Assembly: GCA_003023465.1 (NCBI GenBank)
Contig: PXSM01000035.1
Coordinates: 1-35,765 of the forward strand
Source: Halobacteriales archaeon SW_6_65_15
Lineage (GTDB): Archaea; Halobacteriota; Halobacteria; Halobacteriales; Haladaptataceae
Direction of reading: 5' to 3'
Length of the DNA: 35,765 nucleotides
The notes beneath the pieces are model-generated. The model did no database searches, was not told the origin of the DNA, and saw only the letters and a list, made by a program, of their open reading frames with translations. The position numbers and the translations under genes were made by a program. The first letter of the stretch is position 1. Each line of letters starts with the position of its first letter. Shown here in pieces: positions 3,175-34,909 of this stretch.

Positions 3175-6100
3175 TTACGCCTCTGCCTCGGCCAGCGGCG
3201 TGATGGCGATGGTCATCTCGACGCCTTCGACCTCCCACTCTTTCCGGTAGCCGTCCTCGACCGGGCCGACCTCGGCGGCGCGGCCCTCCGTTTTCACGAG
3301 GTCCATGCGCTCCTCGACGAGGGATGACCTCGCGGGCGTACCCCTCGCTCTCGATGTCCTCGGTGAGTTCGGTGTCCACGTAGACGACCCCGCGCTGGTC
3401 GCCGTCGGTGTCGAACGCGACCCCGGTGACGCCCTCGGGCGTCTGGGTCACGAACTCGACCATCTCCGCAGAGAGGGCCACGTCCATGCCGGTCTCGGCC
3501 TCGGCCGCGCCTTCGAGCGCGTCGAGCGTGGGTTCCGCGACGCGGGCGTCGTTGAGCGCCTGCATGACCCTGCCGGCGTCGTCGCCGAACTCGGGACCGA
3601 GGACGCTCATGTCGGCCTCGGCGCTGTACTGGAGTTCGCCCCAGTCCTCGTCGGGCGCGACGAGTTCGACCGCGCGCGAATTGACCCGGTCGGCCAGCAG
3701 GTCGCGGTGGCGCTCGACGGCCTCGACCGTGCGCTCGTCGCCGGCGGTGACCACGACGCGCTGGACGGGCCAGCGGAGCTTTCGCTCGGCCTGCTGGCGG
3801 GCGTTCGACCCCGCCTCCTCGACGGCGCGGAGCAGGGTCACGTCGGTCTCCAACTGCTCGTCCTGCCAGTACTCGTCGGCCTCGGGCCAGTCGCACATGT
3901 GGACGGTGTCGTAGCCGTCGTCGCCGGTGAGGGTGCCGTAGATCTCCTCGGCGACGAAGGGCGCGTAGGGCGCGAGCAGGGCGACGACCGTCGTCAGCAC
4001 CTCGTAGAAGGTGGCGTAGGCGGCCCGCTTGCTCGCGCTGTCGGCCTCGTCCCACATGCGCTCGCGGACGACCTGGATGTAGAACCGCGAGACGTCCTCG
4101 ACCACGAAGTCGAGCAGCACGTCGATGGCCTTGTCCTGTCGGAACTCCTCCCAGTGGTCGGTCATCTCGGCGACGACCGTCTGGAGGCGCGCGAGCACCC
4201 ACTCGTCCACGAGTTCGAGGTCGTCATCGACGTCCGCCAAAGTGGTATCGGTCGGGTCGAAGTCGTCCAGCCGCATGTACGGCAGCGGGAACCGGAACAC
4301 GTTCCAGAGGATGTTGAGGTCCCGCTGCATCTCCTCGGTCTGGTCGTACGAGAAGCGCATGTCCTCGCCCTGCGGGTTCGACGAGAGGAGGAACATCCGC
4401 ATCGGGTCCGTGCCGTACTCGTCGATGACCTCGTGGGGGTCCACGAGGATGCCCTTGGACTTGGACATCCCGCGGCCGTCGGGCATGTTGGCGTACCCGT
4501 GCATCAGCACCTCCTCGTACGGAATCTCGTCCATCGCGGCCGTGGCCATGCCGAGTTGCGACCAGAACCAGCCGCGGGTCTGGTCGTGGGCCTCCATGAT
4601 GAGGTCGGCGGGCCACAGTTCGTCGAAGTCGTCCTGCTCGCTCGGGTAGTCGAGTGTTCCCCACGTCGCCACCGAGGAGTCCAGCCACACGTCGAACACG
4701 TCGCCGACGCGGGTATAGGTGGTGCCGTCCTCGGTGATGGTGAGGTCGTCCACCGTTCCCTTGTGGAGGTCCACGTCCTCGGGGTCCACGTCCTGATCGA
4801 CGCGCTCGGCCAACTCCTCGCGGGTGCCGACGACGATCACGTCGTCCATGTCGCCGGACCAGCCGTCCGGGGCTTCTTCTCGCGGGCTTGCGCGAGACGT
4901 TCCAGTCGGGCGCGTCCTCCACGAAGTCCCGGAAGCGATTGTCACGCGCCCACTGGGGGTGCCACTCGCTGTCCTCGATGTTGGCCAGCAGTTCGTCCTT
5001 GATGTCGGTGACCGTGATGAACCACTGGTCGGTGACGATCTGGATGATGCCGGTGTCGCACCGCCAGCAGTGGCCGTAGCTGTGATGGGTCGTGCCCGAC
5101 GAGAGCATCAGGCCCTTGCCTTCGAGGTCGGCGATGATGTCCTCGTCGGCGTCCTTGACGAACTGCCCGGCGTACTCGCCGCCGCGGTCGTCGTACACGC
5201 CGTCGCCGTCCACGGGACAGAAGATGTCGAGACCGAGTTCGCGGCCGCGCTCGAAGTCCTCCTCACCGTGGCCGGGCGCGGAGTGGACGAGACCGGTTCG
5301 GTCAACCTCCACGTAGTCGGCGGTGTAGACCTGCAGGGCGTCCTCGCCGCTGGCGTGGTCGGGGACCTCTTCGTGGAGGGGATGGTCGTACGTCCAGCCG
5401 ACCATCTCCTCGCCCGTGAACTCGGCTTCGACCTCGTAGTCGTCGTATCGGCCTTCCTTCAAGACCTCCTCGACGCAGCCCTCGGCGAGGTAGAGGACTT
5501 CCTCCTCGCCGTCCTTCTCCGCGCGGACCTGCTGGTAGGTCACGTCGCCGTCCACCGCGACGAAGGTGTTCGCGGGGATGGTCCACGGGGTCGTGGTCCA
5601 GATGACGAGGTACCCCTCCCGGTCGCCGCTCGCGGGTCCTTCGTCCCCGCTCGCGCGTTCCGAGACCTCCCCTCGGTCGGTCTCGCGCAGGGGGAACTTC
5701 ACGTAGATGGAGGGATCGGAGACGTCCTCGTACTCGACCTCGTTGTTGGCGATGGCGGTCTCGCAGCGGGGACACTGGGAGATGGAGCGCTGGCCCTGCT
5801 CGACGAGGCCCTTCTCGTGGGCCTGCTGGAAGCCCCACCACGCGGCCTCCATGTACTCGGGGTTCACCGTCTTGTACGGGTTCTCCCAGTCCATCCAGAC
5901 GCCGAACGACTGGAAGTCCGACTGGAGGCCCTCCAGTTGGTCCTCGGCGAACTCCTTGCACTCCTCGATGAAGTTCTCCTCGCCGAACTCCTCGATGTCC
6001 TTCTTGTTCTTGAAGCCCAGTTGCTCCTCGACGCGCGTCTCGATGGGCAGGCCGTGCATGTCGTAGCCCGGTCGGTCGGTCACGTCGTAGCCGCACATTC

Positions 6101-6323
6101 GGAGGTACCGGATGTAGGCGTCCTTGAGCGTCTTGTTCCACGTCGTCCCCATGTGGGCCGCGCCGGAGGTGTACGGCGGGCCGTCCACGAAGAAGAACGA
6201 CTCCTCGTCGGCACGATGCTCTTTCGTCTTCTCGTAGGCGTCCACCTCGTCCCAGTAGTCGAACACCCGCTCCTCGACCTCGTCGGGTTCGTACTGGTCG
6301 GCGACCTCCTCGAACCTGCTCAT
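3175..6323 (-). pseudogene. ileS: Isoleucyl-tRNA synthetase, two frame-breaking internal losses
   Basis: The product should charge tRNA-Ile. Three frames must be joined. The first (6323 to about 4895) has the HIGH-type motif in PYTSGAAHMGT and the editing domain, ending DWNVSRK. The second (about 4885 to 3325) resumes at PDGWSGDMDD and carries the KMSKS-type motif GMSKSKG and the anticodon-binding helices. The third (about 3322 to 3175) reads LVEERMDLVKTEGR and ends PLAEAEA. Between frames one and two the usual RYWGIP-x-P-W motif of class I synthetases is missing. Between two and three about a dozen residues after EGYAREVI are missing. An essential gene is unlikely to be truly broken twice, so assembly error or a second ileS elsewhere must be considered. 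A TATA-like TTAAATT (6347-6353) precedes the start. Confidence 0.85.
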
Positions 6324-6803: not shown

Positions 6804-7235
6804 ATGAGCCAAGACGATTGCATCTTCTGCCAGATCGTGAACGGCGACATCCCGAGCCGCAAGGTCTTCGAGGACGACACTGCGATGGCCTTCCTCGACG
6901 CCAACCCCCTCGCGCCGGGTCACACGCTCGTCATCCCGAAGGAGCACCACGAGACCCTCCAGCAGCTACCCGAGGAGACCGCGGCCCACGTCTTCGGCGT
7001 GCTCCACCGGCTGAACACCGCGGTCGAGCACGCCGTGGACGCCGACGGGACCAACGTGGCGTTCAACAACGGCGAGGCCGCCGGGCAGGAGGTGCCTCAC
7101 GTCCACGGTCACATCATCCCGCGATTCGAGGACGACGGCGGCAACCCCATCCACGCCGTCGCGGGGCGGCGTCCGGACCTCTCCGACGCGGAGCTGGACG
7201 AAATCGCCGAGGAGATTTCGAACACCGACTGGTAG
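6804..7235 (+). CDS. HIT family protein
   Basis: A 143-residue cytoplasmic protein of the histidine-triad family, which hydrolyses nucleoside phosphoramidates or related adenosine derivatives. The N-terminus has the zinc-type CIFC pair and the family pattern IVNGDIPSRKVFEDD. The active-site triad HVHGH lies at residues 99-103. Length matches the HINT branch. The ATG at 6804 begins MSQDDCIFC, as in family members. An in-frame start 87 bases upstream would add a tail without family similarity and is rejected. It is convergent with the MATE gene downstream. Confidence 0.92.
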   Translation: MSQDDCIFCQIVNGDIPSRKVFEDDTAMAFLDANPLAPGHTLVIPKEHHETLQQLPEETAAHVFGVLHRLNTAVEHAVDADGTNVAFNNGEAAGQEVPHVHGHIIPRFEDDGGNPIHAVAGRRPDLSDAELDEIAEEISNTDW

Positions 7236-7301
7236 CGAACCGCGGTCTCCTCTCGAAAACCGCGCGATAGAATAGGAGCCAAGTTCGGTCGTCCGGCGAG
7301 C

Positions 7302-8621
7302 TCAGTCGTCGGGAGACGCCTCGACCCGTTCGGCGGCGCGGGAGTACATCCCGTTGTTCGTGCTGTGAAGATAGTAACCCGCGAGGACGACCGCCGACAC
7401 GATGATGGAAAGCGGCCGCGCCCAGAAGACCGCAATCGCGCCGAAGCCGAGCGTGATGCCCGCACCCGCCGCGATGGGTAGCTGTAACAGCCACGTCTGG
7501 GCGACCGAGGCCACCATCGTCGTCTTGGTCCGACGAGCGCCGTTGAATCCGGCGCGCACGAGCGAGAACACCCCCTTCGCGGGGTAGCCGACGGCGAGGA
7601 ACTGGAGGTAGGCCACCGCGAATGCGAACGAGCGGCCGCTCATCTCCGGGACGAAGAGGTTGACGACGAGTTCGGGCACGAGCCACTGGCCGACCGCGAA
7701 GACCGTGAGGACGCTCGTGCCGATCTTGACGCCGGTCCAGGTCGTGCTCGTGGCGCGGTCGAGGTTGCCCGCGCCGAGGTTCTGGCCGACGATGCTCTGG
7801 GCCGCGTTGCTCAGCGACATCAGCGTTCGGAACGCGAGCGAACTAACCCGGGAACCGACCGTATAGGCGGCCCGGAACTCCCCGAGGTCGACGGTCGCGG
7901 CCGCCCGCGAGAGGATGCCGCCAGCCCGCCCTCGGAGCACGAACGCGACGCCGAGGAGGAACCCCGCGGTGTAGCCCGCGACGGTGGCGAGCGCCGCGCC
8001 GCGGATGCCCAGCGACGGGAACGGTCCGAGGCCGAAGATGAGGAACGGGTCGAGCGAGAGGTTCGCGGTCACCGAGGCGACGTTCATGTACATGGCGGCC
8101 CGGGACTCCCCTCGGCCGACGAAGGCGGCCTCGATGGTGTCGCTCAGACCAGCGAAGACGATGCCGAGCGAGATGACCTCGAGATAGCGAGTGGCCAGCG
8201 CGACGAGGTCGCCACCCCCGCCAGTCGGGCGGGCGCTCGTGACGAGTTCGAGCAGCGGTCGGACGTTGAGGAACATGAGCGCGCCGACGCCCACGCTCAG
8301 GACCAGCGTCAGCAGGAGGCCGGTGAACGCGGCTCTACGAGCCCCGCGAACGTCGTCGGCCCCGACGCGCTGGGAGACGAGGACCTGCGTCCCGACGAAC
8401 GACGCCGAGACGGTACTCGAGAGGAGGAACCAGACGACCGGCGAGGCGAGGCCGATGGCGGCGACCGCGTCGCTGCTGTACCGGCCGACCCAGAAGAGGT
8501 CCACGACCTGCTGGGCGACCCGTACCATGTTCTGGACGAACAGCGGAGCCGACAGCACGAGCAGCGCCCGCGGAATCGGCCCCTCGGTGATCTCCTCGGG
8601 CGAGAGGTCGAACCGCCCCAT
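7302..8621 (-). CDS. MATE family multidrug exporter, probably lacking one helix
   Basis: A 439-residue membrane protein of the multidrug and toxic compound extrusion family, which exports cationic compounds using an ion gradient. The N-terminal half is regular: RALLVLSAPLFVQNMVRVAQ, VDLFWVGRYSSDAVAAIGLA and GTQVLVSQRVGA. At the start of the second half the sequence jumps from VDLGEF directly to RAAYTVGSRVSSLAFR. From memory of relatives, about 35 residues forming the seventh helix normally stand between these. The loss is in frame, around 7866-7876. The protein would then have eleven helices. Either it is inactive or the assembly lost a segment. A TATA-like CTTATTA lies about 95 bases upstream of the start. 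Confidence 0.85.
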   Translation of the reverse strand: MGRFDLSPEEITEGPIPRALLVLSAPLFVQNMVRVAQQVVDLFWVGRYSSDAVAAIGLASPVVWFLLSSTVSASFVGTQVLVSQRVGADDVRGARRAAFTGLLLTLVLSVGVGALMFLNVRPLLELVTSARPTGGGGDLVALATRYLEVISLGIVFAGLSDTIEAAFVGRGESRAAMYMNVASVTANLSLDPFLIFGLGPFPSLGIRGAALATVAGYTAGFLLGVAFVLRGRAGGILSRAAATVDLGEFRAAYTVGSRVSSLAFRTLMSLSNAAQSIVGQNLGAGNLDRATSTTWTGVKIGTSVLTVFAVGQWLVPELVVNLFVPEMSGRSFAFAVAYLQFLAVGYPAKGVFSLVRAGFNGARRTKTTMVASVAQTWLLQLPIAAGAGITLGFGAIAVFWARPLSIIVSAVVLAGYYLHSTNNGMYSRAAERVEASPDD

Positions 8622-8776
8622 CTACGCTCCTCCGGACGTCGCGTTCGACGGTCGAAACTGCGCGTGTCGATTCGACAGCATTCCCTCGAATCGAACTACC
8701 GGACCGCGGAACTAATAAGCTTGCTGAACTGCAGTAACGTAGCTGAAATTATACTTTTAGAACGGGTCGGCCGAAC

Positions 8777-9214
8777 TCAAAGCGCCGCCGCGCCCTCTCC
8801 GGCGAACTCCCGCCAGTGCCGGAGCGCCCAGAAGGCCAGTCCCGTGCAGATGAGCCCGGCCGCGACGAAGTACACCAGCATGTTCGAGGCGAGCATGCGC
8901 TCGGGGTTCCGGACGGCGAAGACGAACCCCTCGGCACCCAGCGCGGTGAAGACGAAGCACGCCACCGAGACGCCCACCGTGGCGACGATGACCCGGATTC
9001 CGTCGGCCGTGGGATCGTCGAGGACGAAGAGGGTCCCCGCGAACGCGATAGCCATCGCCAGCACGTAGAAGGGGAGTCGCGCGCCGACGTCGGTCGCCGA
9101 GCCCGTCAGAAAGGAGACGACGCCCACGAAGCTCGCAGTGAGGACGACGGTGCTGGCGACGACCGCGCCGCCCGCGCGGGCGACGAACTCCCGGTCGGTG
9201 GCTGGCGAGTCCAT
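8777..9214 (-). CDS. Four-helix haloarchaeal membrane protein
   Basis: A 145-residue protein of unknown function starting MDSPATDREFVARAGGA. It has four hydrophobic segments: about residues 13-36, 46-65, 73-94 and 109-130. The last is followed by a basic patch (LRHWR), so the topology may place both ends inside. The ATG at 9214 is preferred over a start 78 bases upstream, which would add an unrelated Ser-rich tail. It is divergent from the HerA-like gene, with 156 bases between, and its stop lies 155 bases from the MATE start. No enzyme motif is visible. Confidence 0.65.
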   Translation of the reverse strand: MDSPATDREFVARAGGAVVASTVVLTASFVGVVSFLTGSATDVGARLPFYVLAMAIAFAGTLFVLDDPTADGIRVIVATVGVSVACFVFTALGAEGFVFAVRNPERMLASNMLVYFVAAGLICTGLAFWALRHWREFAGEGAAAL

Positions 9215-9336
9215 GCGGCTTTCCTCCGAGCGCGACCCCAAAAATCTACTGGAGACCTCGCTGACACCAACCGACGAGACCACGAACACCAATCGAGAGG
9301 ACCGCCGACATCAATCGTCGAACCGCCTCGGACACT

Positions 9337-9349
9337 AAACATATATCAC
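9337..9349 (+). promoter_or_regulatory. TATA box of the HerA-like gene
   Basis: AAACATATATCAC is centred 28 bases before the ATG at 9371, implying a leaderless transcript. The TATATCA core recurs before two further sites at 11,491 and 11,735. Confidence 0.6.
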
Positions 9350-9370
9350 TGGGGTCGAAACCTCCGGGCA

Positions 9371-10690
9371 ATGGACGACGCGACCACCGACGAGGAGACC
9401 ATCACCGTCACCGACGACGGCCTCGAACTCCCGGTCGTGGAGGTACTGACCGGCCGGGGGTTCATCACCGGCAAGTCGGGGTCGGGCAAGTCCAACACCG
9501 CCAGCGTCGTCGCCGAGGAGTTGCTCGAACACGACTTTCCGCTTCTCATCGTGGACACCGATGGCGAGTACTACGGCCTGAAGGAGGAGTTCGAAGTGCT
9601 GCACGTCGGGAGCGACGAGACCTGCGACGTTCGGGTCGGCGCGGGCCACGCCGAGCAACTCGCCGAACTCGCGCTGGTCGAGAACGTCCCCATCGTGCTC
9701 GACGTGTCGGGCTACCCCGACGCCGACGAGGTGGCCGACGTGGTCGAGGCGGTGGTCAAGGCGCTCTTCCACCGCGAGAAGTCGGTCCGCAAGCCCTTCC
9801 TCGTGTTCGTCGAAGAGATGCACGAGTTCGTGCCCGAGTCGGGCGGCCTCGACGACGTGGGCGAAACCCTCGTCAGGGTCGCCAAGCGAGGCCGCAAGCG
9901 CGGTCTCGGCCTCTGCGGCATGTCCCAGCGCCCCGCCGCGGTGGACAAGGACTTCATCACCCAGTGCGACTGGCTCGTCTGGCACCGCCTCACGTGGGAG
10001 AACGACACCAAGGTCGCCGCCCGGATACTCGGCGGTGACGCCGACGAGACCGTCCAGGAACTCGACGACGGCGAGGCCATCATGCTGACCGACTGGGACG
10101 AATCCACCCGCCGGGGGCAGTTCCGGCACAAGCGAACCTTCGACGCGGGCGCGACGCCTGGGCTCGACGATTTCGACCGCCCGGAACTGGAGACCGTGAG
10201 CAGCGAGGTGGTCGCCCGACTCCAGTCCGCCGAGGACGAAGCGGAGGCCGCGCCACCGGATGCGGACGTCGAAACCCTCCGGGAGCGCCTCGAAGCGAAG
10301 GACGAGCGCATCGCGGAACTCGAAGCCGAGGTCGAGCGACTCCGGGAGGGAGCCAGCGACAGCGACGCGGGCGGCGGTGGCGTGAGCGGCGACAGAGACA
10401 CGAGCGACGGTGGCGGAGACGCGGAGGCGACCCCGACCGCAGACCCCGTCGCCGACGCGACCGGCCTCCTCTGGGAGTCGGGCTACCTCGTCGTCCACCT
10501 GCTCGCGACCCTCGGTCGCCGACTGGCCGCCGCGGGCCGGTGGGTCGCGGCGACGGTCGCCCGCGGAAGTCGCGGGGCCGTCGAGTGGTTGCGGGCCGAC
10601 GACGAACCGCTCCCCGAAGAGACGGCCGCGCTGGTCGCTCTCCTCGCGGTGGTTGCCGCCTCGCTCGTCGCGGTGGCGCTCCTGTTCTAA
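9371..10690 (+). CDS. HerA/FtsK-like ATPase with coiled coil and C-terminal anchor
   Basis: A 439-residue protein. The first 280 residues form a DUF87/HerA-type ATPase: Walker A GKSGSGKS near residues 35-42, Walker B FLVFVEEMHEF near 140-150, then VRVAKRGRKRGLGLCGMSQR, which carries the sensor and arginine residues seen in HerA and VirB4-like ATPases. A coiled coil follows (VETLRERLEAKDERIAELE, about 298-325), then a Gly/Asp/Ser-rich linker, an amphipathic stretch and a final hydrophobic helix (AALVALLAVVAASLVAVALL). Soluble HerA works with NurA on DNA ends. This one looks tail-anchored in the membrane, and no nurA is adjacent, so the substrate is unknown. Its stop overlaps by four bases that of the convergent next gene. 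Confidence 0.8.
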   Translation: MDDATTDEETITVTDDGLELPVVEVLTGRGFITGKSGSGKSNTASVVAEELLEHDFPLLIVDTDGEYYGLKEEFEVLHVGSDETCDVRVGAGHAEQLAELALVENVPIVLDVSGYPDADEVADVVEAVVKALFHREKSVRKPFLVFVEEMHEFVPESGGLDDVGETLVRVAKRGRKRGLGLCGMSQRPAAVDKDFITQCDWLVWHRLTWENDTKVAARILGGDADETVQELDDGEAIMLTDWDESTRRGQFRHKRTFDAGATPGLDDFDRPELETVSSEVVARLQSAEDEAEAAPPDADVETLRERLEAKDERIAELEAEVERLREGASDSDAGGGGVSGDRDTSDGGGDAEATPTADPVADATGLLWESGYLVVHLLATLGRRLAAAGRWVAATVARGSRGAVEWLRADDEPLPEETAALVALLAVVAASLVAVALLF

Positions 10691-11388
10691 TCGTCAGCCG
10701 ACCGGGCTCCACCCGATTGATCCCTGCCCAACCGACGCCGCCGCTGTAGCAGGTACGCCGGGCCGGCCAGAATCGAGGACGCGACGAGCGCGACCACCAG
10801 ACTTCCGGCGAGAAAGCCGACCGATTCCTCGATTCTCTCGACGCCTCGGACCACCGAAAAGGCGCGTATCACCGCCAGAGCGACCGCACTCGGGACCACG
10901 TAGCGCCACGGGTTCGGCGACCAGTCGGCCCCCGCTTCGCGAAGTCGGGTCGCGTCGCGGATCACCGCGAGCGTCCCCGCCGTGCAGAGGAGGAAATATG
11001 GTATCAGCACCGCGAACGCGAGCAGACCCGACGGCGAAGTCCCGGTTCTGAGCGGGTTCGGATCGAATAGCCACGACGCCGCCGAGAGGACGACTGCTCC
11101 CGCAAGCGGTGCGACCAGCACCCACCAGCGGTCGAGGGCCAGCGATTCGGAACCGGAGGGACCACCTCGCTCGGCAGTCTCTGCGTCGGTTGCATCCGCC
11201 ACTTGGGTCGGGCTCTCGGCCGTCGTCGGGTCCTCGACCGCCGTTCCAGCCTCGGCCACCACGTCTGCGACCACTGCGTCCGCGACCGCCGCCGTCCCGT
11301 GGCCGAGACGGCTGGCTATCAGTTCGCTCCACCTCGGAGGCGCGTCCGTCGCTCCCGCCGGTTCGTCCGCGAGTGCTGTCGTGTCCAT
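10687..11388 (-). CDS. Haloarchaeal membrane protein of unknown function
   Basis: A 233-residue protein with an acidic, Ala/Thr-rich N-terminal half (residues 1-85) and then four hydrophobic segments: WWVLVAPLAGAVVLSAASWL, LLAFAVLIPYFLLCTAGTLA, WRYVVPSAVALAVIRAFS and FLAGSLVVALVASSILAGPA. It ends in a basic Arg-rich patch (LLQRRRRLGRD), probably cytoplasmic. No family motif was recognised. It is convergent with the HerA-like ATPase, the two stop codons overlapping. Confidence 0.6.
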   Translation of the reverse strand: MDTTALADEPAGATDAPPRWSELIASRLGHGTAAVADAVVADVVAEAGTAVEDPTTAESPTQVADATDAETAERGGPSGSESLALDRWWVLVAPLAGAVVLSAASWLFDPNPLRTGTSPSGLLAFAVLIPYFLLCTAGTLAVIRDATRLREAGADWSPNPWRYVVPSAVALAVIRAFSVVRGVERIEESVGFLAGSLVVALVASSILAGPAYLLQRRRRLGRDQSGGARSADD

Positions 11389-11761
11389 GTCTGTCCTCCG
11401 GCCTCTCCTTCAGTGGTCAGTCCGTGCGCGGTCGGCCCCGACACTCGTCGGGTGAACCGCCGGACGGCGTTGCCACTCCGGGGAAAGGCTTATATCACCG
11501 GACGGAGAACGTGACGACGTTCCACCATCGCAGTTCTCCACGGTGTTCGTTCGCCTAGGACCTACTCCGTCTCACCCGACCGACTTTAATCTTATTTGCC
11601 GGCAGTAACACGTCCGAGCCGGTCGAAACGGCGCAGTTCTGGTCGAAGTACCGCGGTTTTCGAACCGGACGAGGAGATTCGAATCAGAAGTACGACTCGT
11701 TCTCCGTCGGCTCGCCGCGACCTCCGGACGTTTTTATATCATCGGGAGCAAGCTCAAACCA
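11389..11761. other. Intergenic region with an orphan promoter-like site
   Basis: No convincing gene is visible in these 373 bases. GGCTTATATCACCGG at 11488-11502 resembles the TATA boxes of the genes on either side, but only a 15-codon frame from a GTG at 11511 follows. A short RNA is possible. The real promoter of the next gene is at 11731-11740. Confidence 0.4.
11731..11740 (+). promoter_or_regulatory. TATA box of the MinD/ParA-like gene
   Basis: TTTTTATATC is centred about 26 bases before the ATG at 11762, consistent with leaderless transcription. Confidence 0.6.
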
Positions 11762-21426: not shown

Positions 21427-24400
21427 TCACGTCGTCCGAAGGTGGTCCGTCGAGGGTTCGTACACCTCGCCTTTCTGCTTGAGCTTGTCGATCTCGTGTT
21501 CGGCCTTCGACTGCTCCATGCCGATCTCGTCGGCGCGGACCATCACCTCCTCGACGGGTGCGCCCTCCTCGTACTCCTCTTCGATCTCGGAGATGAGCTG
21601 TTTCAGGTTCTTGATGCGGTCGCGCTGGGACTTCGAGGTACCGGTCTCGACCACGTCGGCGTCGAACTGGCCGGTCTCTGGGTCCACGCCGATGTCCTGT
21701 AGACAGGAGCGCGTGATGTCGACCGCGCGCTCGGCGTCTTCGGCCTCCACCTCGTCCGAGATGCGGACGCGAGCGCTCGCCTCCGCGAGCCGGACGAGTG
21801 CTTCCAGCTGGCGGGCCGTAACCGGAACCGGAGCGTCCTCGTCGGCTCCTTTCGACCGGAGGTCGACGTAGAAGTCCTCGATGGTCTCCATCGCCTCGTC
21901 GGTCATCGTCGGGAAGCAGTTGCGCTTCGAGTAGGCGATGTACTTACGCAGGAGGTCGGGGTCGATGGTGGGCGCGACCTCCTGAGTCTGGTTGTTGACC
22001 TCCTCTTCGGAGATGTTCGGCGCGCTCATCTCCGTGCGCTGGGTGTTCAGTTGGCCCGCGTAGTTGGTCTGGAGAATGTGTTCGGCCAGTCGCTTGTCTT
22101 CCTCCTCGTTAGGTTTGTCGGTGACCGTGAAGATGAGGTCGAAGCGAGAGATGAGCGCGGGTTCGAGGTCGATCTGCTCGCCGATGGGTTCGTACTGGTC
22201 GAACCGGCCGTACTTGGGATTGGCCGCACCGAGCAGCGAACACCGGGATTTGAGCGTGGCGTTGATGCCCGCCTTCGAGACGGATATCTTCTGCTGTTCG
22301 AGCGCCTCGTGCATCGCCGAACGATCGTCCGCGGCCATCTTGTCTAGCTCGTCCACTGCCGCGATGCCCTTGTCCGCGAGGACGAGCGCGCCGGCTTCGA
22401 GGGTCCACTGCTGGCCGTCGCCGAAGTCGTCCCGGACCGCGGCCGCAGTGTTGTGGGTCACGACGCCGTTGCCGACGAAGTTGTGCGTCTCCGGGACCGT
22501 CAGGTCGAACACCTCCTTCTCGCCAGTGTCGACGGCCGCGACGACCTCGTCCCAGCGAAGGCCCGCGTCGGCCACTTCGCGGACCGAACTCTCTGCGGAA
22601 CCGAGGTCGATGTCGTCGAGCATCGACTGCACTCGGGACCGACTCGGATTGTCGCCCCTCCGAACGTTGTTGTGGTACTCGCCAGCACTACCATCGACGG
22701 TGGCGAGTGCCGAGCCGACGGGCACGGTCTCGCGTTGCCGTCGCTCGTCCGCGACGATTCGTTCGAGTGCTCGCTGTTTCGCCGGCAACGCGAAGCCGAT
22801 GGCGTCGGCGTATCGGTCGACGTCTGCACCGTATATCTCGACGAAGTGCTGGACGTGCTTCGACGTAATCGTTCGACCGTCGGCGAGTTCGTAGGTCCCC
22901 CGGCGGTCTCGTTCGCGAGTCCGGGCGCGAACGCCGTACGACTCCAGCACGAGCTGGACCTGTCGCGCGAGGCGTTCGCTGATCGTAGACACGAGAACGC
23001 TCGACCCGTCGTCGCGCTCGGAGACGGAGCCGTCGGCGTCCATCAACCCGCGGAGGAAGGCGTCGGCGTGCTTTGCGGTCGTCAACTCGGGTGCGAGTGC
23101 GAGGCCAGTTTTCGGCGTCTCCATCCCGGCATTCGCGAACAGTCTGGCGATGGTCGCGCTGTTGACCCGTATGCAGGGCACTCGGTCATCCTGCCGTTCG
23201 ATTTCGGGTCGTTTGTCGAACTTCTCGGCGAAGATGTCGGCCGCGCGTTCGAGCAACGCCTCGTCGCCGTTCGAGATGCGAACCATCCCGCGGTTTCCGT
23301 CGCGCCGGTCGAGCGAGATGTCTCCGTCGCCGAACACGAGTCCCAGCAGGTACATCAGCTCCTCGTCGAACCGGTCGGGAACTGTGATGGAGTCTCCGTG
23401 ACGGATCATCAGACGTTCGAACTCAACGTCGCTCCGTTCGGCTCCGATCGCGTCGAGTATCCGGTCCAGTTTTTCGAGTGGGACGTGGCGGTGCCGCAGA
23501 TGAGAGTAAATGAAGTCCTCCGAGAGGTCGAGTTCCGCCGCGGCATCGCCGAGCGTCCCGAACTCGTCGGTCAGCGACTCTCGAAGGAACTCGATCGAGT
23601 CGTCGGTGAGATGGATTTTCTCGGTCGTGAGCTCGAGGAACTCCCGGACTGACTGCTCGGTTCGGTCGAGGTCGTCGTACTTCGGAACTGCGACGTAATC
23701 GCCAGCCTCGACGTCGGATATTTCCGTCCACTCGATGCCGTTCTCGCCACAGGTCAGCACGGGCGTGTTGACTGACGCTTCGAGTTCTTTCCCGCAGTTC
23801 GTCTCGATCCGGCGACACGGTTTCTCGGGCATTCGCCAGACGTGCGAGGAGGTCGCGTCGGACATCGCTCCAGCTTCGCGGTCGAACGTCCGGACGCCGA
23901 TTTCCTTCTCGACCGCAGTCTCGTCAGCGACCGATTCGGGGAGTTCACTCGACACGACGTCCCGAATCTCCCGGAACCCGTCGTCGGTGTGAATCATCGT
24001 GTCGCCCGTCACGCAGAGTCCGGCGCTCGACGACCCCTTGCCGGAGGTGTAGACCGAGCGCGGGGCGATATTCTGGACGTAGGAAATCATCTGGGAGTTG
24101 TGTGAGACGACGTTGTTCGTGAGGTAGTTATGTGTCCCCGCAACTTCGAGGTCGTACACCCAGTCGTAGTCGGGGTCAACGGTTTCGATAGACTCGATTT
24201 GAGCAGTCCCTACTTTAGAGCCGAGAAGGAGAGATGATGCGTCCGAACCGTAAGTCGCACTTCGTACTCCGCCGTCAGTCAAAGTGACCGAGTCTGATTC
24301 ACGGACTGCCACAAAGTCCCCCTGTCGAAGATTCTCCCCGCGAACAGCTTCGAATTCACCTCCGGATTGGACGAACAGCGGATGTGATGGCGTGACTTCA

Positions 24401-25635
24401 AGTTCAGTTCCGCTTGCCGTCTCAATTTGATACATCTCTTCAGGCACTTCTCGCTTCCAAACCTTTGTCGCGCGTTTTTGAACGAGGGTCCCATCGTCAC
24501 ACATCGATGGCAGTGGAATATCGACCTCTTGGTAAACACCGTCGTCTATTGGTCTGGGGTCAGTAAGATGGGATTCCACGATTTCGCGGATTGGTCTCTC
24601 TGTTCCATTCGCAAGCGTGACTTTCGTGTCTCCTTTTACACACTTACCCGTGCCGGGGTCCCCGATCAAGAGCATATGCAAATCGCCCCGAATCCGGGAC
24701 TCGTCGGGAAGATGCTTCGTCACGCCGGAGAACAACTGGAGGATCATCGCCAGTTTCTCCTCGTCGTAGCCGTAGATGGCCGGAGCCATCGACTCGACCA
24801 TCTGCTCGTAGATGTCGTCTTCGTTCGAGAGTTCGACGATCTGCTTCTTGTCCTCGTCGGTGATGTCCATCTCCTCGAACTCCTCGTCCTCGATGGTCAC
24901 CGACATGCCGTCCATGTACACGTCGAAGACGGCGGACTTGTCCTGTCCGCTCCCCTGCTGTTCGAGGTGGAGGATGCCCGTGACCGTGACGTGGTCGCCG
25001 GGCGTGACCTCGCCCGTCACGTCGTCCTCGATGTGAACGTCGATGCTCTGGGGCGTCTCCCCACCGCGGAGGCCCTCGGGGCTTTCCTGGACGCGAATCT
25101 TCTGGGAATCGACGAACTCCGACTGGTCGAAGTTGATCTGGAACGGACCCTGTCGCTCGCAGCCCTGACACTCGTGGGGTTCCTGGAAGTCGCCGCTGCT
25201 CTGTGGGATGTAGGTCAAGGTACCGCAGCGCTGGCACTCGAAGGCGGCCTCCTGTATCTTCGGCCGGACGTTGGTCGCCTTCCGGACGATGCCCTGCACG
25301 CTGACGAGCATGTTGACGTGCCGGGCGCGGATTGCGCGGATGTCGGTTATCTCCGGCAGATTCTCCACGCGCACGTGGGCCTGTCCGAGACTCACGTCCA
25401 CGGGGAGGTCGTAGAGACGGAGTGCCTCCTCGGCGTACTCCCGTAGCTGTTCGGGTTGCGAGAGGAAGTCGTCCGCGAGGTCGGCGTCGTATCGGTAGAG
25501 GTCCGACCAATCGACGTACACCGACCGCTGCTCGTTCGGGTAGTTCTGGGCGAGTTCCCCGATCTCGTCGCTGTAGTACCGCCGGTAGAACTGCTCGAAG
25601 TCGTCAATCAGCTCCGTGTTCTCCGCGCGAGCCAT
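21427..25635 (-). CDS. mcm: Replicative helicase MCM containing two inteins
   Basis: A 1402-residue precursor. Removing the two inteins leaves 698 residues, the usual haloarchaeal length. MCM forms the hexameric helicase that unwinds DNA at replication forks. The N-terminal domain has a zinc ribbon (Cys134, 137, 156, 159). Walker A GDPGTGKS is split after Lys331 by intein 1. The loop GKGSSSAGLT is split after Leu540 by intein 2. Walker B LADKGIAAVDELDKM follows at about residues 1086-1099, then sensor 1 (LLGAANPKYG), the arginine finger in LISRFDLIF, and a C-terminal winged helix (EEVMVRADEIGMEQSKAEHE). The extein reading frame is unbroken. Both inteins must splice for a working P-loop. Confidence 0.95.
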   Translation of the reverse strand: MARAENTELIDDFEQFYRRYYSDEIGELAQNYPNEQRSVYVDWSDLYRYDADLADDFLSQPEQLREYAEEALRLYDLPVDVSLGQAHVRVENLPEITDIRAIRARHVNMLVSVQGIVRKATNVRPKIQEAAFECQRCGTLTYIPQSSGDFQEPHECQGCERQGPFQINFDQSEFVDSQKIRVQESPEGLRGGETPQSIDVHIEDDVTGEVTPGDHVTVTGILHLEQQGSGQDKSAVFDVYMDGMSVTIEDEEFEEMDITDEDKKQIVELSNEDDIYEQMVESMAPAIYGYDEEKLAMILQLFSGVTKHLPDESRIRGDLHMLLIGDPGTGKCVKGDTKVTLANGTERPIREIVESHLTDPRPIDDGVYQEVDIPLPSMCDDGTLVQKRATKVWKREVPEEMYQIETASGTELEVTPSHPLFVQSGGEFEAVRGENLRQGDFVAVRESDSVTLTDGGVRSATYGSDASSLLLGSKVGTAQIESIETVDPDYDWVYDLEVAGTHNYLTNNVVSHNSQMISYVQNIAPRSVYTSGKGSSSAGLCVTGDTMIHTDDGFREIRDVVSSELPESVADETAVEKEIGVRTFDREAGAMSDATSSHVWRMPEKPCRRIETNCGKELEASVNTPVLTCGENGIEWTEISDVEAGDYVAVPKYDDLDRTEQSVREFLELTTEKIHLTDDSIEFLRESLTDEFGTLGDAAAELDLSEDFIYSHLRHRHVPLEKLDRILDAIGAERSDVEFERLMIRHGDSITVPDRFDEELMYLLGLVFGDGDISLDRRDGNRGMVRISNGDEALLERAADIFAEKFDKRPEIERQDDRVPCIRVNSATIARLFANAGMETPKTGLALAPELTTAKHADAFLRGLMDADGSVSERDDGSSVLVSTISERLARQVQLVLESYGVRARTRERDRRGTYELADGRTITSKHVQHFVEIYGADVDRYADAIGFALPAKQRALERIVADERRQRETVPVGSALATVDGSAGEYHNNVRRGDNPSRSRVQSMLDDIDLGSAESSVREVADAGLRWDEVVAAVDTGEKEVFDLTVPETHNFVGNGVVTHNTAAAVRDDFGDGQQWTLEAGALVLADKGIAAVDELDKMAADDRSAMHEALEQQKISVSKAGINATLKSRCSLLGAANPKYGRFDQYEPIGEQIDLEPALISRFDLIFTVTDKPNEEEDKRLAEHILQTNYAGQLNTQRTEMSAPNISEEEVNNQTQEVAPTIDPDLLRKYIAYSKRNCFPTMTDEAMETIEDFYVDLRSKGADEDAPVPVTARQLEALVRLAEASARVRISDEVEAEDAERAVDITRSCLQDIGVDPETGQFDADVVETGTSKSQRDRIKNLKQLISEIEEEYEEGAPVEEVMVRADEIGMEQSKAEHEIDKLKQKGEVYEPSTDHLRTT
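22450..24015 (-). mobile_element. MCM intein 2 (large, with LAGLIDADG endonuclease)
   Basis: Residues 541-1062 of the precursor (522 residues). It starts with Cys (CVTGDTMIHTDDG) and ends with His-Asn (NGVVTHN) before extein Thr1063. The two endonuclease motifs are YLLGLVFGDGDIS (near residue 762) and FLRGLMDADGSVS (near 864), both with the acidic catalytic residue. Block F reads EVFDLTVPETHNFVG. Block B reads ELEASVNTPVLT, where the usual His is not in its standard place. The endonuclease would cut intein-free mcm alleles and drive spread. GC content is closer to that of the host than in intein 1. Confidence 0.93.
24097..24642 (-). mobile_element. MCM intein 1 (mini-intein in the Walker A loop)
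   Basis: Residues 332-513 of the precursor (182 residues). It starts with Cys (CVKGDTKVTLANG, block A), has block B with the Thr-x-x-His pattern (EVTPSHPLFV), block F (WVYDLEVAGTHNYLTNN) and ends His-Asn (NVVSHN) before extein Ser514. All residues for splicing are present. There is no LAGLIDADG endonuclease; a short linker (SDSVTLTDGGVRSATYGS) takes its place. Base composition is visibly lower in GC than the surrounding mcm exteins, which suggests recent arrival. Insertion is at the most conserved spot of the helicase, between Lys and Ser of GTGKS. Confidence 0.93.
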
Positions 25636-26054
25636 TCAACGAAGCTTAGTTCCTCATCCCGTAAGAAGTTTCGTAAACGGACTGAAAGTGAAAATGGACG
25701 AAAGCGGGCGGGCCTCGGGGAGACGTGTTCGCTCGACAGGAGGTTCTGCGTCGCTCGAATTCGACACCGAACGAGGGGTAGGATTATCGTGATAGAAGAG
25801 TTGGAGCGAGAGTTGCGGAATGGGGAACAGATCGGAGGCGGCGTCAGCCGCCGGAGGGACGCGGGTTGCGGTTTTCATCAACGTTTTGCAAGCGGGGTGC
25901 TCGCAGAGTACCATTCGTAGACCCGGACTAGAAGATACGTGGTCGACGTTGAGTTGGTGATGCCGTCACCCCTTCCAGATTACGGTTGCTGGTCATTCCG
26001 GTTCTGGAGGGAAACGCACCGAAAAAGAAGGCGATTCGTTCGACCGACAGTTAC
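25636..26054. other. Intergenic region before the island
   Basis: No gene is supported in these 419 bases. The first 30 hold a weak promoter for mcm (minus strand AACTTCTTACGGG). Positions 25862-25894 hold one copy of the 33-base direct repeat that also occurs at 32531-32563. An 86-residue frame on the minus strand (25654-25914) contains the peptide PACKTLMKTATR, encoded by this repeat, and is regarded as spurious. Confidence 0.5.
25862..25894 (+). repeat. Direct repeat, left copy, flanking the island
   Basis: The 33 bases agree with 32531-32563 at 30 positions in the same orientation; the shared core is ACGTTTTGCAAGCG preceded by TTTTCATC. Everything between the copies is the lower-GC five-gene island. 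Confidence 0.75.
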
Positions 26055-27911
26055 CTACTTTCGTTCTCCAACGAACCGGAATTCGTTTTTCTTCAGCTGT
26101 CCGAAGCCGCCACCTCCGAACTTGGGATACTCGACCCACGGATAGGAGAACATCTCTTGACTCTCGTGGAACATCGGAAGCTGGATGACATCGGTCCAGT
26201 TCGCCTCCTCGATTGCTACGTAGCCCTCGTTTCGCGCTTGTTGTGCCTCCTCGCCGGGGCCCACGTTCGCCTGGACTTGGTTCTCCCAGGCGTTTGCCGC
26301 CCGATCTGCGGCTTCCGTTCCGCCCCAGTTCGTGAAGCCGACGTTCCCATCGGCGGACGTGTCCGTGTTGGGCGGGTACAGTAGCTGAAGGAAGTTGTCT
26401 GGTCCGGGCCAGTCGAACGCCCACCCCAAGCCGTATGCATCGATATTCCCGTTGAGTAGCCGCCCTGCGAGCGCGGAGAATTCCAAGCGTTCCAGTTGGA
26501 TGTCCATGTACGCGCTGGACATCTGGTCGCGGATGAGTTGGCCTATCGATCTCCAAGCGTCGGTGTACACCAACAGAGTGAATTCGAATCGTTCACCTTC
26601 GCCGTACCCTGCTTCCTCCATGACGCGACGGGCTTCGTCGAGCCGAGACTCGTTGTATCCGTACGGATAGTTGTTCTCGGCGTGGTCGTCGTACGCGTCG
26701 GCTCCACCGGGATAGATCGACGGCGGCGTGAAGTGGTACGCAGGTACGTACCTCCCCTTGAACACTTCCTCGGTGATCAGTTGCTGATCGACGGCGTACG
26801 CAATCGCTCTCCGGGGCGCTCTGGGGATTCTCTCGGTGTTGAATCCGAGATACGACGAGGTGATTGTAGGAACTCGAAGGTAATCCACCGTCTCGTCGTT
26901 GCGCAACGGCCCGTAAGTACCTACGTCCCGTCCTTGGTCGTCGGTTTCCTCCACCGAGACTTTCGAGGGATCGTAATGCGCGTTGGGGAGTTCGAAGATA
27001 TCCGCATTCTTGTTCGTCGCGTAGGTGAACTGGGCTTCTTCGTCCGAGATGGACCTCCACCGGACCCCACTCACGTGCGGACCGTCTCCGTGATAGTCGT
27101 CGAACGCGCTGAGAACGATTTCGGCGTCTTGCTCGTGTTTCTCGAACGTGAATGGCCCACAGCCGACCGGGTTCGTGGCGAACTCCGACTGGGTCATTTC
27201 ACCGTCGTAATTCGGCACGTCGTCGACGATACCCTCCGGCAGGACGCTGAATGGCGAGAACGCGAGCATCTGCAGTGCGGCGTGGAACGGCTCCTGGAGC
27301 GTTATCTCGACAGTCCGCTCGTCGACCGCGCTCACGGCTAACGTCCCGGGCGAGTACACCTCGGTTGCCTCACCATCCTGGGTTGTCGTTTCCGTTTCGT
27401 GTTCGACGCCGAGCGTATCCAGGATGTAATGTCCGCGCGCGGAGTTCTCCGAGGCGGCGAGTCGTTCGAACGAGTAAACGACGTCGTCAGCCGTCAGTGT
27501 CGCCTCGTTGTGGAACGATACCCCGTCCTTGAGGGTGAACGTGTACGTCCGATCATCGTCGGAAATCTGGTAGTCTGCAGCCAGATGTGACCGTACTTCT
27601 GCTTGTCCGTGGTAATAGTTCGTCAACCCGTCGAAAATATTCACGATGACCGCACTATCGGTACTCGTCGTCTGGGGGACCGTATCGAGGGTCCGTACGC
27701 CAGTCGTTATCAGTTCGAGCCGACGCGCGGGCTCCTCCTGCTCCGACTGCGTTGTATCCTCGGCGTCTGTCTCAGTAGGGTCTGAGGTCTCAGCAGTCGT
27801 GGTAGTCTCTTGATCGCCGCTCCCGCTGCAGCCCGCGAGTGCGACTGCCGTGGCAGCACTTCCAGTGGCACGCAGGAAGTTCCGCCGCGATTGTTTGGTA
27901 TGCTTTTTCAC
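26055..27911 (-). CDS. Peptide ABC transporter substrate-binding lipoprotein
   Basis: A 618-residue extracellular solute-binding protein of family 5 (DppA/OppA type), which captures di- or oligopeptides for import. The N-terminus has a Tat signal (SRRNFLRATG, residues 8-17) and a lipobox ending at Cys28 (ALAGC), followed by a Thr/Glu/Asp-rich linker to about residue 60. Family features are TYTFTLKDGVSFHNEATLTADDVVYSFERL near 130-160, VGCGPFTFEKHE and the RRAIAYAVDQQLITEEVF hinge. No permease or ATPase genes for the transporter are in the window, so it must pair with parts encoded elsewhere. A TATA box at 27935-27940 lies 24-29 bases upstream, with an AACAA-N4-TTGTT repeat beside it. Confidence 0.9.
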   Translation of the reverse strand: MKKHTKQSRRNFLRATGSAATAVALAGCSGSGDQETTTTAETSDPTETDAEDTTQSEQEEPARRLELITTGVRTLDTVPQTTSTDSAVIVNIFDGLTNYYHGQAEVRSHLAADYQISDDDRTYTFTLKDGVSFHNEATLTADDVVYSFERLAASENSARGHYILDTLGVEHETETTTQDGEATEVYSPGTLAVSAVDERTVEITLQEPFHAALQMLAFSPFSVLPEGIVDDVPNYDGEMTQSEFATNPVGCGPFTFEKHEQDAEIVLSAFDDYHGDGPHVSGVRWRSISDEEAQFTYATNKNADIFELPNAHYDPSKVSVEETDDQGRDVGTYGPLRNDETVDYLRVPTITSSYLGFNTERIPRAPRRAIAYAVDQQLITEEVFKGRYVPAYHFTPPSIYPGGADAYDDHAENNYPYGYNESRLDEARRVMEEAGYGEGERFEFTLLVYTDAWRSIGQLIRDQMSSAYMDIQLERLEFSALAGRLLNGNIDAYGLGWAFDWPGPDNFLQLLYPPNTDTSADGNVGFTNWGGTEAADRAANAWENQVQANVGPGEEAQQARNEGYVAIEEANWTDVIQLPMFHESQEMFSYPWVEYPKFGGGGFGQLKKNEFRFVGERK

Positions 27912-27934
27912 ACCACTTCCGTACTCCGAGATGG

Positions 27935-27952
27935 TATAAACAATTACTTGTT
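27935..27952 (-). promoter_or_regulatory. TATA box and candidate operator of the binding-protein gene
   Basis: On the minus strand TTTATA is centred 26 bases before the ATG at 27911. Overlapping its upstream edge is the inverted repeat AACAA-GTAA-TTGTT (27939-27952), a plausible operator. Confidence 0.5.
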
Positions 27953-28002
27953 AAATACCCGCATCTACTCAGGAAAGATAGGATTTCGGGCCCTTAATCT
28001 GA

Positions 28003-29178
28003 CTAATCCAACACTAGCTCGGTGGGATAATCAGTCAGGTTCTCATATCCGTCCTCGGTCACGACGACGAGATCTTCGATTCTGACTCCACCAGTCCCCT
28101 GTTCGTACAGACCTGGCTCTACTGTAACCACGTTACCAGCCTGCAGTTCCTCCCCGCCAAGCCCGAGGCTCGGCTTCTCGTGTACGTCAAGCCCGACTCC
28201 GTGTCCAGTGCTGTGGAAGAAGCCATCCTCGGTCGATTCGTCGGTTCGAAGAGTCGGGTAACCCTCCCGTTCGTAAACGTCACAAACTGCGTCGTGGACG
28301 GTCTCCCCGGTGACACCTGCCTCGATGGTATCTAACGCTGCTTGGTACGCCTCGTACGTCAGTTCGTACCACTCCTGGATACGTTCGGTCGGTTCCCCTT
28401 TGACAAACGTCCGGGTAACGTCTCCGTTGTACCGGGTTCGCTTGTTCATCGGGAAGATATCGACTGTAATCGGCTTACCGGGTTCGAGTGGTCCACTCCC
28501 GTTCTCGTGTGCTCGAGCCGAGTCGGCCCCGCAGGCAACGATACAGTTGTCGAGCCCACATCCTTCTTCGAGCAACGCAATCTCGATGTGTTTCCGGACT
28601 CGTTCGCTCGTCAGGACTTCTCCGTCGTAGTACAGTCGACCATCCTGGACGGACGCAGCGGCGAGCAGGTCCTCTGCAACCGCCACCGCTTTTTCGTTCG
28701 CTTTCTGCGTCTCGCGGATGTGTTCGATTTCCGTATCCGTCTTCACCGCCCGAAGTCCGGAGAGGACGTTGTCGTAGTCGGGAACGACAGTAACGTCCTG
28801 CTCTCGTAACGCGTCGGCTGTCCCGACGGGGAACTCCACCGGAACAGCGACTGTTGAAGCTTCGAGTTCGGCGACGAACTCGGCGATTGCACGGTATCGG
28901 GCTTTTTCTGGACCGTACTCTTCGGCTTTGGTCTGATAATCGAACTCCGAGAGTTTACGTACGGTGTCGCCTGCACTGTCCGTCTTCGCACGAGTGTACT
29001 CGAGTTCGGATACGAGGAGGTGAATGTCTCCTTCGGTGTAGAGAGTAGCGAAGTTGTCGGGCGCGTGGTATCCGGACAGGTAGTACTGGTTCGAGTTTTC
29101 GCCGTCCGCGTCGAGCAAGTAGCCGTCGGCTCCCTTTTCGTCGAGGTGCGAGTCCAACTTCGTCGAGTGAATGGTCAC
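28003..29178 (-). CDS. M24 family metallopeptidase (Xaa-Pro type)
   Basis: A 391-residue cytoplasmic enzyme with an N-terminal creatinase-like domain (residues 1-140) and a C-terminal pita-bread fold. The five metal ligands of M24 peptidases can be placed: Asp in ITVDIFPMN, Asp in YNGDVTRTF, His in [13 protein letters not shown], Glu in VTVEPGLY and Glu in GVRIEDLV. Their presence argues for an aminopeptidase or prolidase and against creatinase, which lacks the metal site. It would cleave short peptides, perhaps with Pro in second place, delivered by the neighbouring binding protein (inference). It has its own TATA-like stretch (29201-29210). Confidence 0.9.
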
Positions 29179-29263
29179 ACTACCGATACTGGGAATGCAG
29201 TATTAAGTGATACGGTGCCAGAGAATGTCACCCGATACTGCAGTGAGAAGATGGTTCTTCGAC

Positions 29264-30409
29264 TCAGATGAAGTTCTGCTCGTCCGTCGTTGCTCCCCGC
29301 TCGAAACGGGAACTGCTGAACTCGGACACGTCGGCCAGCGAAGCGGTACCGTCCACGACGAGTTCACTCACGATTTGCCCGGTCGCCGGAGCGTGCATGA
29401 ACCCGTGGCCGGAAAACCCAACGGCGTTGATGAATCCAGGGATCGACTCCTCGATGATCGGGTTCTGGTCCGGAGTAAGCGCGTACAGACCCGTGATGCT
29501 ATCTCTGACTTCGGTATCCGGACCGAAGTATCCCGCCAGTTCCGTAACCCCCTCCAGGACGTCGGTCGTCCACGGTAAATCCACGTTCGACTGATACGCG
29601 TCAGGGTCAGCCTCGACCAGCGTCTCGGTGTGACCGCTGATGACCATGACTTCCGAATCTTCCGGATAGAAGACGGCCCCGCCGTCTAGATCCATCGTCA
29701 GCGGGAGCGTTTCCGGGGACGATTCGGCCGGTTCGACGAGCAACAGACGCCTGAGCGTCGGTTTGACAGGAATGTTTATTCCGGCCAGTTCCGCAACGTC
29801 GCCCGCCCAGGCACCGGCCGCGTTGACCACAAAGTCGGTGACCTGACGGCCTTCCGTCGTTTCGACGCCCGTAACCGTGCCGCCCTCGTCCTGGTAAACG
29901 GCAGTGACTTCGACACCTTCTCTCACGTCCGTGCCCGCCCCGCGGGCCGCGTCGGCGTAGCCTTGAAGTGCAAGGTGTGGATCGACGAATTCGTCGTCGG
30001 GTGAGTAGGAAGCACCGACGAACTGCTCGGCGTGTAGTTCCGGACAGTACGCCGTCGCCTCTTCGGGAGACAAGAACTCGTTCGAAACTCCCAGTTCGTT
30101 TTGCATCTCGACGTCCGCGCGCAGTTTCTCGGCAGTATCTTCCTCCCGGGCCAGAAAAAGATATCCTGTGGGCCTGTGGCGAATGTCGACGCCGAATTCG
30201 TCCTCGAAGTCGTCCCAGACGCGCTTGCTCTCGATTGAGAGGATCACGTTCGCGGGCGTCGAGTACTGGGTCCGAATCCCACCACCGTATCCGGTACTTC
30301 CGGCTCCTAGTCGGGATTTCTCGTACAACGTCACGTCGATATCTTCCTGCGATAGATAGTAGGCGCAAGCGACACCGACGATTCCCCCACCGACGACTGT
30401 GACGTGCAT
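29264..30409 (-). CDS. FAD-dependent amine/amino-acid oxidoreductase (DadA/SoxB-like)
   Basis: A 381-residue flavoenzyme of the D-amino-acid oxidase superfamily. It oxidises the C-N bond of an amino acid or secondary amine to an imine. The dinucleotide-binding motif VVGGGIVGVACAYYL is at residues 4-18, with the ribose-binding Glu in VTLYEKS. Later motifs are NAAGAWAGDVAELAG and the C-terminal flavin-contact segment GFSGHGFMHAPATGQIVSEL. Possible substrates include sarcosine, proline, glycine or D-amino acids; the sequence does not decide. The downstream M24 gene starts 85 bases after its stop, and RidA lies upstream, so the three look functionally linked. Confidence 0.88.
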   Translation of the reverse strand: MHVTVVGGGIVGVACAYYLSQEDIDVTLYEKSRLGAGSTGYGGGIRTQYSTPANVILSIESKRVWDDFEDEFGVDIRHRPTGYLFLAREEDTAEKLRADVEMQNELGVSNEFLSPEEATAYCPELHAEQFVGASYSPDDEFVDPHLALQGYADAARGAGTDVREGVEVTAVYQDEGGTVTGVETTEGRQVTDFVVNAAGAWAGDVAELAGINIPVKPTLRRLLLVEPAESSPETLPLTMDLDGGAVFYPEDSEVMVISGHTETLVEADPDAYQSNVDLPWTTDVLEGVTELAGYFGPDTEVRDSITGLYALTPDQNPIIEESIPGFINAVGFSGHGFMHAPATGQIVSELVVDGTASLADVSEFSSSRFERGATTDEQNFI

Positions 30410-30506
30410 ACGCCGTGTGTCGGAAGCGGATGGCTAAAGTGTTCCCTTCGAAATGAAACTGTTACACTCCGATAGTCAGTGATACCATAATACGCCACCT
30501 GCCGGG

Positions 30507-32178: not shown

Positions 32179-32259
32179 GCGATTATGAACATCGGGTGTA
32201 CGTATTAGTTCTAGCGTAACACGTTAGTTTGCCTAGAAACGTCAAGAGCGTTGGATTCG

Positions 32260-32520: not shown

Positions 32521-32530
32521 CGGACCGATT

Positions 32531-33497: not shown

Positions 33498-34909
33498 CTA
33501 CACGCCCCAGATCGCCGCGATCCCGGCGGTCGTGACGACGGCGAACAGCAGTTGGAGCGGACCGCCGACGCGCACGTAGTCGGTGAACTTGTAGCCGCCG
33601 GGACCGTAGACGAAGAGATTGGTCTGGTAGCCGACCGGCGTCATGAACGCGGTGGAGGCCGCGAAGGTGACCGCGAGCACGAACGCGAAGGCGTTGGCAC
33701 CGAGCTGGGCGGCGGCCTCGGCCGCGACCACCGCCGCGACGATGCCGACCGCGAGGAGAATCTTCGACTCGCGGTAGTCGGGGCGTTCGATCTCCTGAGC
33801 GACGATGAAGTCGCGGTTGACGTTGAGCCGCGAGATGCTGTCGGCGGTCGCCTGCACGAGGAGGATGTCACCGACCTGCAACTCGGCGTCCTCCATGCGC
33901 TTGCGGATGTACTCCGGGCCGCGTCGCAGGGCCAGCACCGTGGCGTCGTACCGGTCGCGGAAGTTCGCGGCGGCGAGCGACTCGCCGACCAGCGACGACC
34001 GGGGCGCGACGACGACCTCCACGAGCGTCTCGCGGTCGGTCCGGAGCGCGAACACGTCGCCCGACTGAATCTGCGTGGGACCGAGCGGTTCGACGAACGT
34101 CCGTCCGCCGCGGATGAGCTGGACGAGGTCCACGTCGAACTCGGTCTCGTCGAGCGCGGCCGCGACGGTCCGCCCGACCAGCGGCGAGTCCGGGGTGACG
34201 ACCACCTCCGTGAGGTAGTCCTGCAACTCGAACTCCTCGGTGAGGTCCTCTCTGGGCGGGATGCGTGCGGGCGTGAGCCAGCGGCCGAGCGTCATGAGGT
34301 AGGCCGCGCCGACGACCGAGACCAGTGTCCCGAGCGCGGTGAACTCGAACATCGAGAAGGCGTGCAGTTCGGGGTGTTCGGTGGCGAGTCGAGCCGAGAG
34401 GTCGCGGGCGAGGATGTTGGTCGAGGTGCCGATGAGGGTGAGCGTCCCGCCGAACATCGAGGCGTACGACAGTGGGAGGAGGAGCTTCGAGGGCGAGGTC
34501 TTCCCCTCGTGGGCGAGGTCGGTCACCATCGGCATCAGGATGGCAACTGCGGCGGTGTTTTTGATGAACCCCGAGATGGAGCCGACCGCGCCGACGGTCG
34601 CGCCCAGCTGGCGGGTCTCGTCGTCGCGGGTGAACGCCGTGATCTTCCGTCCCAGTATCTGGACCGCGCCGGTTCGCTGGACGCCTAGCTCAGCACGAAC
34701 ATCGCCAGCACGGTGACGGTCGCGGAACTGGCAAATCCCGAGACCCCCTCGGCCGGCGAGACTTGCGTCCACGGCTCCAGCACCATCAGCGCCACCATGA
34801 TGCCGATGGCGGTGATGTCGATGGGAACCGGCTCGGTGGCGAACAGCACCAGCGCTGCGAGGATAACGAGGAAGACGACGACGATACCCGGCGTCAGCGA
34901 GAGTACCAC
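33498..34909 (-). pseudogene. SLC13/DASS-type transporter with RCK-C domains, damaged
   Basis: The family imports anions such as sulfate or dicarboxylates with sodium. The start (MVLSLTPGIVVVFLVILAAL) runs to TVTVLAMFVLS and meets a TAG at 34685-34687. Reading resumes one frame over with GVQRTGAVQILGRKITAF, as if one base were missing in a Tyr codon. Helix and loop motifs (FIKNTAAVAILMPMV, GTLTLIGTSTNILA) and two RCK-C domains follow (EVVVTPDSPLVGRTV; EVVVAPRSSLVGESL). Then the sequence jumps from VGIVAAVVAAE to AAQLGANAFAFVLAV near 33705-33735, where from memory about 110 residues with several helices are expected. The end (TAFMTPVGYQTNLFVYGPGG) is typical. Confidence 0.82.

Follow-up and report, generated by a model that had tools for sequence, protein, structure and literature searches.

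Draft MAGs carry local assembly errors which leave incorrect protein-coding genes behind (PMC7111523, Genome Research 2020). In the sections of that article that bear on the present case, the errors include gaps, unsupported joins, incomplete or incorrect protein-coding genes and N gaps at scaffold joins, a picture that the genome considered here resembles; there the errors are recognised by their lack of read support, and here they are inferred from sequence comparison. The second point of reference is the archaeal ileS gene (TIGR00392, class I synthetase), for which a literature search combining Halorussus with isoleucyl-tRNA synthetase returned no paper. The stretch of DNA that was analysed (the window) is the entire contig C35, of 35,765 bases, and belongs to an incomplete Halorussus draft genome of 2,510,763 bases in 169 contigs, with a completeness of 62.47%; the congeners used for comparison are Halorussus species. 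Within the 608,644 bases of the draft that were examined there are 20 runs of N, 5 to 249 nt in size, and such short, uneven runs point to scaffolding of the draft, unless they are masked stretches.

The ileS gene lies on the minus strand of the window, from an ATG at 6323 to a TAA at 3175-3177. Its best DNA match in each congener is 82-88% identical (n = 17), and two of its pieces match positions 3-468 and 482-860 of TIGR00392. Unlike other archaeal ileS genes, this copy lacks two segments in the draft and, as the preliminary description had pointed out, can be read only with two frame changes. The 5' piece (4890..6323, PF00133 match at 4887-6266) runs in frame 1 from M1 to NVSR, after which that frame stops. 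It is followed by a first frame change, join A, made of 27 nt (4863..4889) that cannot be aligned with the other ileS loci, and then by the middle piece in frame 2 (3322..4862, WSGDMDD... to AREVI, PF00133 match at 4352-4846). In the same alignment a second frame change, join B, falls between 3321 and 3322, where 92 nt are missing, and the 3' piece (3175..3321) continues in frame 3 from VEERMDLVK... to the stop codon.

At join A, the congeners carry 44 nt that encode QRYWGIPIPIW and the beginning of a linker, against the 27 nt found here (by eye, against locus L010), which amounts to a net change of -17 nt relative to G010. Join B is a clean loss of 92 nt, or about 31 residues, immediately after AREVI; the congener segment begins with RRVQEMRK. 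All 25 ileS loci from other genomes in the alignment, 17 from Halorussus and 8 from other haloarchaea, carry both segments, four more distant loci (L034-L037) having been left out. The RYWGIP motif is indeed absent, the segment that contains it being replaced at join A. The earlier estimate of about a dozen residues missing at each join holds for join A and is too low for join B. The 27 nt of join A and their left flank, when read in the downstream frame, resemble linker (RASPREEAPDGW), and one congener (G006, locus L021) has an insertion within the same linker; for these reasons join A may end, on its right side, inside a species-specific linker insertion. The idea that the lost pieces had moved to another contig was rejected, as no convincing counterpart was found in the assembled genome: the congener version of one piece found at best a 37-nt match elsewhere in the draft (E = 0.0027, among the 40 of 107 candidates that were scored), and that of the other a 15-nt match (E = 0.49, 10 of 10 candidates scored).

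Outside the joins, ileS is under ordinary purifying selection and resembles a functional copy. Its median pN/pS is 0.262 versus 0.243-0.324 among the 17 congeners; pieces 1 and 2 contain no stop in 971 codons; and 7 of 625 congener-invariant residues are altered in the draft, for a leave-one-out range of 0 to 15.

The preliminary description had put forward, as one possibility, that a second IleRS exists and that this copy is decaying, and had proposed a search of the genome for it. Run on the assembled 2.51 Mb of this 62.47% complete genome with TIGR00392, PF00133 and the 5' 500 residues of ileS, the search found none. With a TIGR00392 cut-off of 621.4 bits, each of the 17 congeners had exactly one ileS above threshold and the draft had none; in the draft the two pieces of the ileS gene itself score 508.9 and 328.5 bits, neither reaching the cut-off; they are the only two strong TIGR00392 matches of the draft, both on C35. 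Besides ileS, PF00133 matched a ValRS gene on C129, in one open frame, the leuS pieces on C115, the metG pieces on C149 and, over a short length, C161; the 5' 500 residues of ileS brought out nothing closer than the genes identified with PF00133. True decay, in which ileS would be a recent pseudogene backed by a second, perhaps acquired, IleRS left unassembled, is compatible with the unseen part of the genome and with the fact that both lesions break the frame. It is nevertheless very improbable, given the single ileS of every congener, the lack of another IleRS in the assembled part and the normal selection on the remainder of the gene. In addition, metG, leuS and pheT are broken likewise (see below), so that decay would call for the same excuse in four synthetases, in trpA and in further genes. 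A variant deserves just as little credence, in which a recently acquired, unassembled IleRS released this ileS from constraint while metG, leuS and pheT were broken by artefacts that have nothing to do with it.

Losses of the same type were sought elsewhere in the draft by comparing 45 contigs or contig parts (608,644 bases) with 1,202 ORFs taken from 1.65 Mb of G010. A loss was scored when at least 25 nt were missing while adjacent matches were separated by at most 20 nt. Any match at all in the sampled contigs was found for 555 of the 1,202 ORFs, and 71 passed the ortholog filter (26,425 aa aligned). As the reference ORFs were chosen greedily by length, some of the 71 calls are antisense to a real gene: the C129 reference ORF is antisense to valS before it runs into gnd, and the reference ORF on C60 lies opposite pheT. 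Eleven calls were split into several matches; another 16, which were single matches covering less than 90% of the ORF, were left out of the examination. Seven of the 71 calls showed a loss relative to G010: ileS at join B (92 nt), metG on C149 (about 113 nt), trpA (133 nt; TIGR00262, PF00290), the phosphogluconate dehydrogenase gene gnd on C129 (34 nt; NF007161), an MFS gene (146 nt; MFS_1, PF07690), pheT on C60 (38 nt; TIGR00471) and a gene of C12 (34 nt, ambiguous in the DNA alignment), the names of trpA, gnd, MFS and pheT having been checked on the G010 proteins. The breaks lie near 30,881 (metG) and 34,889 (trpA) of C149, near 4,290 of C129 (gnd) and near 886 of C60 (pheT). For metG, trpA, gnd, MFS and pheT, G010 was the sole reference from which the lost length was taken; DNA alignment shows those of metG, gnd, MFS, pheT and ileS join B, and that of trpA was read from tblastn coordinates. 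Several breaks were kept out of the count, namely join A of ileS (its net 17 nt being under the 25-nt rule), the MCM gene of C35 and a gene of C15 (both with in-frame insertions in the draft), C70 (a 1-nt insertion near a contig end), a 1-nt loss in the permease gene described next, and the first C129 break (an alignment overlap in the ORF antisense to valS).

A second gene of the window is damaged as well. The permease gene (33501..34909, minus strand, CitMHS and TrkA_C domains) has three lesions in an alignment with four congeners: a loss of 318 nt at 33725/33726, one of 93 nt at 34020/34021 and one of 1 nt at 34685/34686, their lengths being identical against each of the four. Two synthetase genes were also compared by profile. 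For metG there is a single above-cut-off match in 17 of 17 congeners, versus two frames in the draft; similarly, archaeal-type leuS is a single above-cut-off match in all 4 congeners that have this type, versus two frames in the draft. In the latter gene, broken near 7,900 of C115, the two matches lie 31 nt apart and leave out 25 positions of the profile, which suggests a loss of roughly 44 nt, and the gene is net shorter than the leuS of G015 and G012.

The losses disregard the codon frame: of eight lengths (92, 113, 133, 34, 146, 38, 318 and 93 nt; join A, C12 and leuS not included) only two are divisible by three. As a control, the loss rule was applied to three congeners (G013, G007 and G008) over the region of the window, which spans about 50 kb in each: none of the 60 ortholog calls (22,678 aa) showed a loss, and the 5 frame-changing breaks of that region included none of the abutting-loss kind. 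The same type of lesion is hence found in unrelated and essential genes of the draft and is absent from its relatives in this control.

The 7 losses in 71 sampled calls could also be taken at face value, i.e. as those of a genome which truly has many small frame-breaking deletions, through genome-wide decay or a mutator lineage. This is extremely improbable: ileS has a normal pN/pS and is free of stops over 971 codons, and a cell lacking working IleRS, MetRS, LeuRS and PheRS could not live. Since no cell can do without these four enzymes together, it is more economical to place the fault in the draft. As other genes, including three more essential synthetase genes, are broken in the same way, we conclude that the ileS breaks are almost certainly an artefact of an incomplete draft, i.e. 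missing sequence and not gene decay, and that the organism very probably carries one ordinary, intact ileS. That the assembly dropped two pieces had been the other suggestion of the preliminary description; it gains support from the losses without Ns in metG, trpA, gnd, pheT, the MFS gene and the permease gene, and further from the split leuS, the indifference of the losses to frame and the purifying selection on what is left of ileS.

The losses in several genes fit short assembly gaps closed without Ns. At the two ileS sites, the draft would lack a few dozen bases, the flanks having been fused directly, without Ns and regardless of frame. Most likely, these were sites of poor read support at which scaffolding or gap closing, whichever step failed, made an unsupported join; wherever contigs were joined without Ns in this manner, tens to hundreds of bases would be absent. 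The reads would be expected to show the missing ileS bases. Because this type of join breaks the genes of four aminoacyl-tRNA synthetases as well as trpA, gnd and two genes for transport proteins, caution is called for: frame breaks and missing motifs in the draft are no evidence of gene decay, and apparent gene losses or pseudogenes should not be taken from it without reads.

What the joins have in common was examined on ten of them. Their mean GC content is 0.728 versus 0.655 at random positions, and on average they fold more strongly than controls by folding energy (p = 0.0008-0.009; p = 0.007 with GC-matched windows, in a post hoc test with n = 10 joins). About half of the joins carry this signal, and those of metG, gnd and pheT (C60) fold no more than GC-matched windows. 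For stem length the joins do not differ significantly (p = 0.09-0.15). Joins that are GC-rich and fold strongly would fit with coverage drop-out; hairpins were rejected as the general cause and are no more than suggested, stem length being not significant and the folding signal being post hoc and driven by about half of the joins. Dispersed short matches number 23 and 19 at two permease joins, above the random 95% level of 11 (300 random positions), and none of the other joins among the ten exceeds that level. Because the excess is confined to these two permease joins, repeat collapse fails to explain the set and was rejected as a general cause. No common overlap signature was found at the joins in the DNA alignment.

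These features also bear on damage before assembly, by which chimeric or deleted molecules arising from DNA amplification or low-input library preparation would have entered the consensus. Several joins do lie in foldable, GC-rich sequence, and two permease joins permit short flanking matches (by eye); most joins, however, are devoid of clear microhomology (also by eye), and in the draft such molecules would have the same appearance as an assembler join. We regard this origin as highly improbable, and retain missing draft sequence as the explanation of the breaks.

A few side observations were made on the draft and its relatives. A dispersed element of about 45-65 nt is made of two hairpins, AGCGAGGCGC-NNN-GCGCCTCG followed by one of the GAGCGGC..GCCGCGAG type. 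Copies are found in the draft at C115:9399-9461 (minus strand, L136), C12:12105-12167, C18:1336-1388 and C168:17132-17182, and in congeners at positions 1227721, 1980029 and 2096477 of G010 C1 and in the ileS linker of L021. The element is located within frames that are open, one of them in the N-terminal part of leuS. All 7 copies examined share one frame of the element that stays open over at least 248 aa and reads SEAxxASxxx; 4 of these copies have another frame with a longer open stretch. An exact match to the first hairpin is present in 16 of 18 Halorussus genomes, the draft included, and in 5 of the 12 other haloarchaeal genomes searched, against no match for a reversed control pattern. 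The element brings to mind the palindromic elements that lie within genes of Rickettsia; a literature search for palindromic elements in open reading frames of haloarchaea returned no paper.

For two blocks of the window, 7220-11730 and 25730-32580, comparison with four congener regions gave no DNA match above 150 bits. The first contains a MatE transporter gene and an ORF with a DUF87/HerA match, and the second SBP_bac_5, peptidase M24, DAO oxidoreductase and class V aminotransferase genes. Between them lies the MCM helicase gene (21427-25635, minus strand, 1402 aa), with in-frame insertions of 546 and 1566 nt relative to G010 that match the Intein_splicing and LAGLIDADG_3 families; in the corresponding gene of G008 the insertions measure 546 and 1923 nt. 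Lastly, a conserved gene on C15 (339-1819, minus strand) is longer than its G010 counterpart by an insertion of about 1482 nt that keeps the frame and may be a further intein.
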